From Sphingomonas naphthae (GTDB taxonomy: Bacteria > Pseudomonadota > Alphaproteobacteria > Sphingomonadales > Sphingomonadaceae), in the NCBI RefSeq assembly GCF_028607085.1, contig NZ_CP117411.1, forward strand, positions 1,240,001 through 1,304,000: a stretch of 64,000 nt of DNA, written 5' to 3'. Under the pieces are notes generated by a model. The model did no database searches and had not been told where the DNA came from. It saw only the letters and a program-made list of their open reading frames with translations. How positions within the stretch are numbered: the first letter of the stretch is position 1; each line of letters opens with the position of its first letter. Below are positions 48,257 through 51,369 of the stretch, in pieces. The translations under genes were made by a program, and so were the position numbers.

Positions 48257-48299
48257 TTGACGACTACATCCGTAATCGAATAAGACTACACCCGTAGTC
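48257..48299 (+). promoter_or_regulatory. Promoter with two BlaI/MecI-type operators
   Basis: There are two dyads 22 bases apart: GACTAC-ATCC-GTAATC (48262-48277) and the perfect GACTAC-ACCC-GTAGTC (48284-48299). They share the TAC/GTA core of known BlaI/MecI operators. A -35-like TTGACG (48257-48262) overlaps the first dyad, and a -10-like TAAGAC (48281-48286) overlaps the start of the second. The arrangement predicts autorepression. Confidence 0.75.
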
Positions 48300-48316: not shown

Positions 48317-48685
48317 GTGGCCGAACGCATCAGCGATGCCGAACATGTCGTGATGGAGGTGCTGTGGGCGGATGCCCCGCTCACCGCCGCCGAAGTGTTC
48401 CAGCGCATCGATCCCGCCCGTGACTGGTCCGACCGCACGGTCAAGACCATGCTCGGCCGGCTGCTCACCAAGGGCGTGCTGGCGCATGAGGAGGATGGCC
48501 GCCGCTACCTCTATCGCCCCACCGTCGAGCGCGAGGCCTATGTCGCCGGGGAATCGCGCCGGCTGGTCGATCGCCTGTTCGGCGGCCGCGCCGCGCCGCT
48601 GGTCGCGCATCTCGCCGAGCAGGATCAGCTGACCGAACAGGATATCGCCGATATCGAGGCGCTGCTGAAGGATCTGCGGCCATGA
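48317..48685 (+). CDS. BlaI/MecI/CopY-family winged-helix repressor
   Basis: A 122-aa transcriptional repressor. The winged helix is clear: 'ISDAEHVVMEVLWADAPLTA', the recognition helix 'DWSDRTVKTMLGRLLTKGVL' and the wing 'AHEEDGRRYLYRPTV'. The C-terminal dimerisation helices contain 'ESRRLVDRLFGGRAAPLVAH', the region where BlaI/MecI are cleaved when induced. The GTG start is eight bases after GGAG. Two dyad operators lie directly upstream. The gene overlaps the BlaR1-like gene by 4 bases (ATGA), forming the usual repressor-protease pair. No beta-lactamase gene is nearby, so the regulated target is elsewhere or is another function. Confidence 0.94.
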   Translation: MAERISDAEHVVMEVLWADAPLTAAEVFQRIDPARDWSDRTVKTMLGRLLTKGVLAHEEDGRRYLYRPTVEREAYVAGESRRLVDRLFGGRAAPLVAHLAEQDQLTEQDIADIEALLKDLRP

Positions 48686-50241
48686 TCGCCTGGACCATCC
48701 AGACCCTCGTCTCCACGACCCTGCTGATGCTGCTGGTGCTGGCGATCCGCCGGCCGGTGGCGTCGATGTTCGGGGCGCGCATCGCTTATGCACTGTGGGC
48801 CTTGCCGGCGCTCCGCATGATCCTGCCGGCCTTGCCGTTCCACCGCCAGCTGTTCGTGCCGGTGATGCTGGCCGCGCCGGATGAGGTGAAGATCGGCCTC
48901 GTGCCGCCCGAAAGCGTCACCCGCGCCTTCGCGCTGCCGCCGGCGATCACCGCCAGCGCGCCCGCCGCCGGGATCGACTGGCCGTTCCTGCTGCTGTGCG
49001 TGTGGGCGGGCGGCGCGCTGCTGTGGTTCGCGTGGCAGATGGGCCGCTATGGCCTGTTCATGCGCCGGGCGCTGCGCGGGGCGACGACGATCTCGCGCGA
49101 ATGCGGCATCGCCGTGATGCAGAGCGATCACGTCACCGGGCCGGTCGCCGCCGGCATCGTCAGCCGCCGCATCTTCCTGCCGCGCGATTTCGTCGCCCGT
49201 TACTCGCCGACCGAGCGACGCCAAGCGCTGCTGCACGAAGGCGCGCACCACGACCGGTTCGACATCGTCGCCAACCTCGCCGCGCTGGCGGTGCTGGCGG
49301 TGCATTGGTGGAACCCGATCGCCCACCGCGCCTATCGCGCCTTTCGTTCGGACCAGGAACTGGCTTGCGACGCGACGGTGCTCGAGCGGATGGGGCCTGA
49401 GGAGCGCTATGCCTATGGCAGCGCGCTCGTGAAATCGGGCGGGGGCCGCTTCACCGGCACCGCCTGCGCGCTGGACCGCGCGACCGAGATCAAGAGGAGA
49501 CTGAAGATGATCAAGCGTGGACGCATCGCCGCCCCGCGCCGCTATGCCGGCGCGCTCATCGCGGCCACCGCCATCACCGGCGGCCTGCTGCTCACCGCAT
49601 CGGGCGGCGCCGCCGCCGAGGTGGCGCGGGAGGCGGTGAAGCCCGTCGCCGCGATGCTGCCGGCCGCCGCCGCAGCCCCCTTCGCCGATCCCGCTCTGCC
49701 GATGCAGGTGGTGGAGCATTCGGTGCAGGAAGGGGCCGCCATCGCCGCCCGCGCCCGCGCCGCCGCCGATCGGGCGCGAGAGGCGGCCGATCACGCCGGC
49801 GTCGCCGCCGATCATGCCGCCCATGCGGCGCATCAGGCACACCTCGCCGCCGCCGCACCCCTGCCGCCGCTCGCCCCGCTGCCGCCGATCGCGCCGGGTG
49901 CCCCGCGCGCGCCGGTCCCGCCGGTGCCGCCGATCCCTCCGGTCGCCACCGCCGACGAGGAGGCGTTCGGCCGGATGATCTCGGCGCAGGTCACCGCCTC
50001 GCTCGCCACCGCCCGCGCCGAACTGGCCTCCGAATGCGCCCGTCGCGGCAAGCCGGTGCCGGATACGCAGGATTGGTCGAGGCTGGCGATGTGCGGCGTC
50101 GATCAGGCCGAAATCCGCCGCGAGGTCGCCAAGTCGCTGGCCGAAGCCCGCGACGAGGTCGCCCGCGACCGCGATATCCCGAGCCACATCCGCAAGAGCG
50201 TGCTGGCCTCGCTCGATCAGGAAATCGCGCGGAACAGGTAA
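48682..50241 (+). CDS. BlaR1-like M56 membrane metallopeptidase without a penicillin-binding sensor
   Basis: A 519-aa integral membrane zinc protease of the M56 family. Several TM helices in the first 110 residues are followed by the cytosolic catalytic loop with 'LLHEGAHHDRFDIV' (HExxH, about 185) and 'QELACDATVLERMG' (third ligand region), then another TM ('AGALIAATAITGGLLL'). Instead of the penicillin-binding sensor of true BlaR1, the C-terminal 200 residues are Ala/His/Pro-rich ('REAADHAGVAADHAAHAAHQ', then 'APLPPLAPLPPIAPGAP') followed by a charged helical segment. It probably cleaves the co-encoded repressor on an unknown envelope signal. Overlap with the repressor gene is ATGA. Confidence 0.9.
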   Translation: MIAWTIQTLVSTTLLMLLVLAIRRPVASMFGARIAYALWALPALRMILPALPFHRQLFVPVMLAAPDEVKIGLVPPESVTRAFALPPAITASAPAAGIDWPFLLLCVWAGGALLWFAWQMGRYGLFMRRALRGATTISRECGIAVMQSDHVTGPVAAGIVSRRIFLPRDFVARYSPTERRQALLHEGAHHDRFDIVANLAALAVLAVHWWNPIAHRAYRAFRSDQELACDATVLERMGPEERYAYGSALVKSGGGRFTGTACALDRATEIKRRLKMIKRGRIAAPRRYAGALIAATAITGGLLLTASGGAAAEVAREAVKPVAAMLPAAAAAPFADPALPMQVVEHSVQEGAAIAARARAAADRAREAADHAGVAADHAAHAAHQAHLAAAAPLPPLAPLPPIAPGAPRAPVPPVPPIPPVATADEEAFGRMISAQVTASLATARAELASECARRGKPVPDTQDWSRLAMCGVDQAEIRREVAKSLAEARDEVARDRDIPSHIRKSVLASLDQEIARNR

Positions 50242-50247
50242 TTCAAT

Positions 50248-50358
50248 CGTCATCCCGGACTTGTTCCGGGATCCACCCCCAAGGCCGGACGCCGCGCTGC
50301 CTTTCGATCGCTGCGCTTCGGGGGCCGGTGGACCCCGGCACAAGGCCGGGGTGACGGG
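50248..50358. repeat. Palindromic intergenic repeat (GTCATCCCGGACTTGTTCC type)
   Basis: Outer arms 'CGTCATCCCGGACTTGTTCC' and 'AAGGCCGGGGTGACGG' are inverted copies about 30 bases long, and each arm is itself a small hairpin (CCCGGACTTGTTCCGGG). It is the same class as 12472-12569. It starts seven bases after the BlaR1-like gene. Confidence 0.75.
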
Positions 50359-50511: not shown

Positions 50512-51369
50512 ATGACCGAAACGATCGCCAGCCCCGTTACGCAGCTTCACCCGCTCGTCCGCCGCGTGCTGGCGCCCAATCCGTCGGCCTTCACTTACAC
50601 CGGCACCGAAACCTATATCGTCGGGCGGGGCGAGGTGGCGGTGATCGATCCGGGGCCGGACCTGCCCGAGCATCTTGCGGCGATCCTGCAAGCCACCGCC
50701 GGCGAGCGCGTCGTGGCGATCGTCTGCACCCACACCCACCGCGATCACAGCCCCGCCAGCCGCCCCTTGCAGGCCGCGACCGGCGCGCCGATCGTCGGCT
50801 GCGCGCCGCTGACCCTGGATGACGACGGCCCGCGCGCCGACGCCGCCTTCGACGCCGACTACCGCCCCGATCGCACGCTGATGGACGGCGAGACGCTGAC
50901 CGGCCCCGGCTGGACGCTGGAGGCGGTGGCGACGCCGGGCCATACCTCCAATCACCTCTGCTACGCGCTGCCGGAGGCAGGGGCCTTGTTCACCGGCGAT
51001 CATGTGATGGGCTGGTCCACCACCGTCGTCTCGCCGCCCGACGGCAACATGACGCACTTCATGGAAAGCCTCGACCGGCTGATGGCGCGCGAGGATCGGA
51101 TTTACTATCCGGCGCACGGCGACCCGGTCGAGAACCCGCAACGCTTCGTGCGCGGCCTCGCCGGCCATCGCCGCCAGCGCGAGGGGCAGATATTGCGCCA
51201 GCTGGGCGACGGGCCGAAGGCGATACCCGACATGGTGGCGGCGATGTACAAGGGCATCGATCCGCGCCTGCACGGGGCGGCGGGGCGGTCGGTCCACGCC
51301 CATCTGATCGATCTGGCCGATCGCGGCATGGTGATCGAACAGGGCGACGGCTGGGCGCTGGCGGCATGA
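50512..51369 (+). CDS. MBL-fold hydrolase (LACTB2-like)
   Basis: A 285-aa cytoplasmic metallo-beta-lactamase-fold hydrolase with no signal peptide. The zinc motif 'VCTHTHRDHSPASRP' (HxHxDH, about 74-79) is complete, with further ligands in 'ATPGHTSNHLC', 'LFTGDHVMGWSTTVV' and 'YYPAHGDPVENP'. A C-terminal winged-helix-like domain ('GPKAIPDMVAAMYKGIDP' to 'LIDLADRGMVIE') is the layout of the LACTB2/ribonuclease-like group, so nuclease or thioester activity is as likely as any beta-lactam activity. ATGs at 50503 and 50512 are both possible and neither has a clear ribosome binding site. It overlaps the next gene by 4 bases (ATGA). Confidence 0.9.
   Translation: MTETIASPVTQLHPLVRRVLAPNPSAFTYTGTETYIVGRGEVAVIDPGPDLPEHLAAILQATAGERVVAIVCTHTHRDHSPASRPLQAATGAPIVGCAPLTLDDDGPRADAAFDADYRPDRTLMDGETLTGPGWTLEAVATPGHTSNHLCYALPEAGALFTGDHVMGWSTTVVSPPDGNMTHFMESLDRLMAREDRIYYPAHGDPVENPQRFVRGLAGHRRQREGQILRQLGDGPKAIPDMVAAMYKGIDPRLHGAAGRSVHAHLIDLADRGMVIEQGDGWALAA

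Follow-up and report, generated by a model that had tools for sequence, protein, structure and literature searches.

A BlaR1-type M56 protease of Sphingomonas naphthae without a penicillin-binding domain carries a conserved two-cysteine helical module as candidate sensor

Introduction

The membrane protease BlaR1 is reported to cleave the repressor BlaI directly, and when a beta-lactam binds, the BlaR1 sensor is described as moving closer to the membrane while the protease domain changes as well (PMC9834060). According to the same account, the signal peptidase SpsB cuts BlaR1 between its last helix and the sensor, and a review presents BlaR1 as a protease to which a penicillin-binding, class D-like sensor has been fused (PMC7593790). 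Mycobacterial BlaI is reported to act on non-beta-lactamase genes as well, and how the M. tuberculosis M56-BlaI pair, which has no penicillin-binding sensor, perceives its signal is stated to be open in the sections of these papers drawn on here (PMC9834060, PMC5473688). A search of the literature, with most subscription papers outside its reach, found no paper on an M56-BlaI pair in sphingomonads. Here we describe such a pair from Sphingomonas naphthae.

Materials and methods

The window is the whole stretch of S. naphthae DNA that was analysed, 64,000 nucleotides in length, and positions are counted from its first letter. Searches covered 298 genomes of the family, named relatives including Sphingomonas, Sandarakinorhabdus and Polymorphobacter; an M56 homologue was found in 203 of these and none in the other 95. 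The 90 homologue loci compared consist of the 30 best and 60 picked down the list of the 203 matching genomes and lean to the better-scoring half; one locus (L008) is incomplete, leaving 89 homologues for counts on C-terminal regions. Scans for BlaI boxes covered 66 of the 203 genomes, S. naphthae included, in sets of 30 and 36 of which 27 and 29 had a match. Structure alignments combined the window protein with 15 (A1) or 14 (A2) of 20 related loci; L087, L093 and L098 (contig ends), L101 (a short broken frame) and L100 (very like L095) were left out of both, and L084 out of A2 only.

Results

A BlaI repressor and a BlaR1-type protease

The gene at 48682-50241 encodes a genuine BlaR1-type M56 protease directly behind a BlaI repressor and without a penicillin-binding domain (Table 1). 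Residues 5-118 of BlaI match positions 1-114 of the 115 in the PF03965 model (121.5 bits against a cut-off of 22.6), and the protein also matches the BlaI/MecI structures 1p6r and 1sd6. The end of blaI overlaps the start of the M56 gene by four bases, and BlaI adjoins M56 in 90/90 homologue loci examined. The HExxH motif is present in all 90 M56 homologues and the column of E226 is identical in every one. In an AlphaFold2 model of the whole M56 protein (mean pLDDT 73.4, pTM 0.56; alignment of 16 sequences), the best structure match is S. aureus BlaR1 (8ext_A; Z 16.9, rmsd 3.9, 229 residues aligned, model residues 1-268), and the fold also matches BlaR1 8exs. Genome searches identified one M56, one BlaI and one C-terminal module in S. 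naphthae.

No transpeptidase or beta-lactamase domain was found in the M56 reading frame with Pfam, no SxxK, SxN or KTG/KSG motif is present in residues 310-519, and the 16 members of alignment A1 all lacked a penicillin-binding sensor domain as judged with Pfam. The score against the NCBIfam blaR1_generic model was 79.1 bits compared with a cut-off of 400. A sequence-only reading of this DNA had described protease domain and partner repressor as intact and the penicillin-binding domain as missing, and both descriptions hold, the match to the repressor model being full-length. Because that domain is absent, a signal other than direct acylation of this protein by a beta-lactam is likely, whilst the histidine-metal principle of the same reading is unsupported (see below). 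An AxA sequence lies within 14 residues after the last membrane helix in 34/90 homologues; by analogy with the cutting of BlaR1 by SpsB, cleavage might occur at ASGGAAAE of the window protein.

Table 1. Positions of the blaI-M56 pair, its predicted regulatory sites and its conserved neighbour in the window
Feature	Position	Strand	Basis or remark
Possible -35 hexamer TTGACG of blaI promoter, touches operator 1	48257..48262	+	inferred, read from sequence
BlaI operator 1 (predicted), GACTACATCCGTAATC	48262..48277	.	exact box match
BlaI operator 2 (predicted), GACTACACCCGTAGTC, 22 bp from operator 1	48284..48299	.	exact box match
blaI, BlaI/MecI-type repressor, 122 aa, no Cys	48317..48685	+	PF03965, E 2.9e-35
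M56 membrane metalloprotease, C-terminal region not a penicillin-binding domain	48682..50241	+	ORF of 519 aa
M56 domain, residues 6-277	48697..49512	+	Pfam PF05569, E 1.5e-46
Zinc site HEGAH, residues 185-189	49234..49248	+	second part E226 in DQELACD
Last membrane helix, residues 284-306	49531..49599	+	AlphaFold2 model; signal-peptidase-like ASGGAAAE directly after
Ala-rich helix with His cluster, residues 351-390	49732..49851	+	predicted helix, block pLDDT 45-62; His not conserved
Pro-rich spacer, residues 391-423	49852..49950	+	predicted disordered; pLDDT <50 at 391-426
C-terminal helical module, candidate sensor, residues 424-519	49951..50238	+	predicted fold and profile matches
Cys452 codon	50035..50037	+	from sequence
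Cys471 codon	50092..50094	+	invariant column in 15-row alignment
MBL-fold protein with BLACT_WH domain (PF00753 + PF17778), conserved neighbour	50512..51369	+	Pfam

Operators before blaI

All 90 blaI promoters contained a box when up to two mismatches were allowed, against 0/90 of the same stretches read backwards, and the exact box was present in 55/90. Two boxes occurred in 67/90 promoters and were spaced 21-22 bp apart in 56 of those 67. The only exact 16-bp boxes in the S. naphthae genome (4.31 Mb) are the two before blaI; boxes with one mismatch were absent from the genome, and those with two mismatches, found in 30 places, are regarded as noise because all matches amounted to 32 per strand compared with 49 in the backward control. 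Matches with three mismatches (10 and 5, control 21 and 14) were likewise rejected as noise. The operator is specific enough for a clean reporter. The sequence TTGACGAY is present in 23/90 blaI promoters of relatives, and a scan of the region upstream of blaI for a consensus sigma-70 promoter found none. The position aligned with the MecI cleavage site, which we take to be Asn-Phe, reads His-Leu in the window BlaI.

As a separate observation, a direct repeat of 11-bp period, TTCA-N7-TTCAG, lies before the BlaI box in 27/90 promoters (for example L019 at -64 and L028 at -79) and in 0/90 read backwards, and had no match in the window. It suggests that another regulator may also act on the blaI promoter in relatives. 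CenR was considered and rejected, its motif being given as TGA-N8-TGA in a report which, in the sections drawn on here, describes CenKR as not found in Sphingomonadales (PMC9275681).

Genes preceded by the box in relatives

Away from the pair, exact boxes were found at 20 sites in 17 of the 66 scanned genomes, compared with a single site in the backward control. TonB-dependent receptor-like genes lie beside two of them; one product (L074) resembles TonB-siderophore receptors below cut-off (89 against 223.5 bits) and the other (L184) has a TonB plug domain. PF00144 serine hydrolases lie beside boxes in two relatives of one genus (L075, L077), and the L077 protein scored 62.1 bits against the 415 of the generic class C beta-lactamase model, far below the class C cut-offs among the 25 of 45 families listed. 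Acetamidase-family proteins were found in two genera (L076, L187) and a PF00756 esterase in L179, with DUF2807 (L180), S41 peptidase (L181), aspartyl protease (L186) and DUF998 (L081) proteins among the other neighbours, some of which look exported and belong to no Pfam family. By a crude rule 18/18 box neighbours are exported or membrane-bound compared with 9/37 window ORFs, a figure that is indicative only, the target having been taken as the nearest plausible start, of our choosing, which can favour exported proteins. The L075 frame stops after 136 aa and is not among the 18; some sites have divergent genes on either side (L185 beside a gene resembling cysteine synthase), and that of L188 is 216 bases away. 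In relatives the box also stands before individual genes whose products are exported or membrane-bound, so the periplasm or envelope is most likely what the switch monitors, and envelope stress as the signal would be compatible with such targets.

Two groups of box-associated proteins are recorded here in their own right. Three genomes of one genus have a BlaI box followed by the gene for an exported-looking protein (L078 3086-3955, L079 3060-3932, L080 3102-4049), the proteins of L078 and L079 giving no Pfam match above cut-off. In two genomes of one genus an exported-looking protein of repeated MRRGAEEM-type units lies behind a BlaI box (L182 1615-2076, L183 2086-2553), and neither gave a Pfam match.

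The alanine- and proline-rich arm

The stretch between the last membrane helix and residue 351 of the M56 protein was modelled with low confidence, and the Ala/His and Pro-rich stretches previously read from the sequence are both present behind it. The histidines of the cluster are at 371, 378, 381, 384 and 387. The chance that 210 aa include a 30-aa stretch with at least five His is ~0.008 if His makes up 2% of residues and 0.06 at the region's own 3.3%, so the cluster is only mildly unusual. The window protein ranks second of 89 homologues for clustering; the median is 3 His per C-terminal region, and 6/89 have none. The median Ala content of the 89 complete regions is 20.1% and that of Pro 8.0%, and the arm ranges from 138 to 419 residues. 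Because Ala and Pro are high throughout the homologues whereas His is not, the low-complexity arm looks like a common family feature and the His cluster like a local, lineage-specific variation of the linker helix.

These data count against two earlier proposals. That the low-complexity stretch replaces the sensor overlooks about 95 conserved, predicted-folded residues behind it, which went unmentioned, and that a His-rich region binds metal as the sensing principle is at odds with a clustering that is nearly private to this protein, with the position of the cluster on a low-confidence helix, and with a Cys-free repressor whose score falls short of the CopY cut-off. A His-metal sensor was rejected as the main reading since the histidines are not conserved across homologues. 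Attention thus shifts away from the histidines; experiments aimed at them would address the wrong region.

A conserved C-terminal module with two cysteines

The module was modelled with block pLDDT values of 79-93 from residue 441 on and of 49-68 at 421-440, and residues 415-519 folded alone gave a pLDDT of 82.9 (pTM 0.47, 15 sequences), so that confidence in the predicted structure is moderate for the whole protein and the module alike. A 15-row profile of the module matched in 146/298 family genomes, most of the matches listed lying in open frames of >450 aa, which by their size would be M56 frames. Homologue alignments show the end of the module to be kept while the linker varies. At least two Cys are present in 80/89 C-terminal regions and exactly two in 68/89, the last two being 18-30 residues apart in 73 of those 80. 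Cys452 and Cys471 probably form a disulfide; a disulfide is not the principle everywhere, because 9/89 regions have fewer than two Cys and three of the five stand-alone relatives described below lack the pair.

No Pfam family scored above cut-off for the window C-terminal region, eight free relatives or L185, and no NCBIfam model did so for the window region and four free relatives. No known fold was found for the module (the best Foldseek match of the isolated module had E 1.4), and residues 472-519 gave low-identity two-helix matches among solved structures. As judged from sequence, the module forms a separate family outside those known in Pfam and NCBIfam. Neither the two-Cys module nor its free relatives were found in the literature searched, and both tentatively appear to be new.

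Free exported relatives of the module

In 7/90 loci, three of one genus and four of another, the gene behind M56 matches a free-module profile, at least 450 bases of downstream sequence being available in 63/90; a weak further match (L167, E 0.00019) was left out of the seven. The five inspected are about 142-146 aa long with a signal-peptide-like start, a Cys pair and the same helical end, and in two loci the protein begins with AHEGHD after the signal peptide. A profile of five free relatives, two of them incomplete, hits 60/89 M56 C-terminal regions at E <=0.01 and that of the window protein at E 7.7e-8. Five further genomes (L194-L198) have a stand-alone relative, no M56 being detected within the 4.5 kb retrieved; the Cys pair is present in L195 and L198 and absent from the other three. 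The L195 protein has the Pro-rich, Ala-rich, two-Cys build of the window module and is 37% identical to it over 82 residues (E 7e-11).

In one genome (G244) the gene for an exported-looking 147-aa protein (L185) has a BlaI box 20 bases upstream. This protein is 41% identical over 117 alignment columns (2e-19) to the M56 protein of another genome (G228) behind its protease domain, the alignment starting inside the signal peptide of the former and the last membrane helix of the latter. This is a parallel case and not the same module, because the C-terminal region concerned differs from that of the window. A further free relative of this type occurs in G296 without a box in the available stretch, and one adjoins a TonB-receptor-like gene (L191); in all, proteins of this type are present in only 4/298 genomes, one of them weakly. 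When the 18 box targets were compared with M56 C-terminal regions only L185 against L140 was clear (6.6e-19), all other pairs giving E >=0.0039.

Neighbouring genes

The MBL-fold/BLACT_WH gene follows M56 on the same strand in 40/90 loci, many with short flanks, and in 22/45 with at least 700 bases available. Two genomes of another genus have it behind a stand-alone module relative (L197 2390-3214, L198 2718-3542), as if these loci, with no M56 in the fetched stretch, had kept only the module. No metal-transport family was found among the window neighbours scanned.

Two further sequences were noted. Inverted repeats TTACGA-N6-TCGTAA and ACGAC-N4-GTCGT, seen by eye, precede the stand-alone module genes of L197 (1587-1819) and L198 (1815-2047) and are possibly BlaI boxes of changed specificity. 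The intergenic stretch after M56 at approximately 50248-50275 reads GTCATCCCGGACTTGTTCCGGGATCCA, which we presume to resemble a dispersed repeat of sphingomonads.

Discussion

From the computed anatomy, operators, module conservation, free relatives and homology with BlaR1 we infer the topology of M56, the cleavage of BlaI, the disulfide and the signal of a self-regulated, membrane-spanning proteolytic switch whose terminal module meets the signal and which reports on the periplasm; this reading we consider probable. BlaI dimers would repress blaI-M56 from the two tandem operators in their own promoter, the pair itself being the only strong target expected in S. naphthae. The zinc-protease part of M56 would face the cytoplasm, and the last membrane helix would be followed in the periplasm by an arm made up of the Ala-rich helix, the Pro-rich spacer and the terminal helical module with its Cys pair. 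By analogy with BlaR1, the module would be the part that meets the signal, and a change in its state may be passed across the membrane to switch on the protease, which would cut BlaI and derepress the operon. Such a change might be one of oxidation state, the binding of a partner, or damage to the arm or its loss through cutting at the signal-peptidase-like site. Loss of the arm could belong to signalling or to turnover, as BlaR1 cleavage and the ASGGAAAE site would allow. As the signal, disulfide or envelope state is favoured.

The free relatives suggest an extension of this switch, which we put forward as a doubtful but possible one, in which a free exported copy of the sensing module acts as ligand, brake or decoy for the M56 receptor in a feedback loop between receptor and secreted sensor copy. 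The protease would then gauge the presence, integrity and correct oxidation of free module in the periplasm, the source of this module being the gene right behind M56 in two genera or, for the other module type and in one genome, a separate gene with a BlaI box. If true, BlaR1 with its class D-like sensor would be one case of M56 receptors fused to a relative of the protein they control.

Other explanations place the signal elsewhere. It is unlikely that the pair is a switch for beta-lactams or cell-wall damage which, having no penicillin-binding domain of its own, senses cell-wall fragments or damage indirectly, as might be considered from the mycobacterial BlaR, described as lacking a sensor yet tied to the beta-lactam response (PMC5473688, PMC9834060), and from a peptidoglycan fragment reported as a resistance trigger in B. 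licheniformis (PMC3305447). The PF00144 hydrolases beside extra boxes in two relatives and the MBL-fold neighbour would fit such a role, but the L077 hydrolase falls far short of the class C models, the neighbour is of the BLACT_WH type, and the S. naphthae genome has no exact box elsewhere. The terminal module might instead be only a stable cap or dimerisation element on a non-sensory arm, with the signal arising in the membrane part or in the first loop outside the cytoplasm. The strong divergence of the arm in length, the varying Cys spacing, and the reported participation of the first extracellular loop of BlaR1 in signalling (PMC9834060) are consistent with this, whereas the module end is conserved despite a variable linker and separate exported relatives, some right behind the same operon, would be left unexplained, and we hold a passive module to be improbable.

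A metal sensor, with Cu, Zn or Fe bound by the His-bearing helix or elsewhere in the arm and protease activity set in this way, appears distinctly improbable. The five histidines at 371-387 lie on a predicted helix at i/i+3 spacings, AHEGHD follows the signal peptide in the free relatives of two loci, the box targets L074, L184 and L179 could belong to iron uptake, one L185-type relative lies beside a TonB-receptor-like gene, and copper-dependent protease activity has been proposed for PetRP of Synechocystis, a pair of the BlaI/BlaR1 type (PMC7896320). Against this stand the low and variable His content of the homologues, amongst which the clustering of the window protein is nearly singular, the lack of a metal-transport family among the scanned neighbours, and a BlaI without Cys that scores 94.2 bits where the CopY model demands 121.95. 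The terminal module is the concrete conserved candidate sensor offered by the family, about 95 residues with two marked residues, and its natural free relatives are usable as reagents.

The pair shares with the staphylococcal BlaR1/BlaI and MecR1/MecI systems the M56 gluzincin HExxH, the membrane fold (Z 16.9, 229 aa) and the BlaI partner, as well as palindromic operators, an extracytoplasmic part after the last helix and a possible signal-peptidase site. It differs from them in having no penicillin-binding, class D-like sensor and no SxxK, in the place of which there is an Ala/Pro arm and a two-Cys helical module, and in having no exact box before any other S. naphthae gene. CopY/TcrY repressors, which carry a C-terminal Cys metal motif, belong to the same superfamily as the window BlaI, but this has no Cys in its 122 aa and remains below the TIGR02698 cut-off. 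PetP-PetR of Synechocystis is likewise a BlaI-family factor with a BlaR1-family protease that does not serve beta-lactams, and is described as a copper-dependent plastocyanin/cytochrome c6 switch (PMC7896320), the comparison being with that description. The mycobacterial BlaR-BlaI pair (Rv1845c-Rv1846c), compared by description, is likewise reported as an M56-BlaI pair without a beta-lactam sensor domain, and the sections of the reports drawn on here mention neither a two-Cys module nor free relatives (PMC5473688, PMC9834060). M56-BlaI pairs without a beta-lactam sensor are thus already known, and the present pair appears to be a variant of them with a two-Cys helical module.
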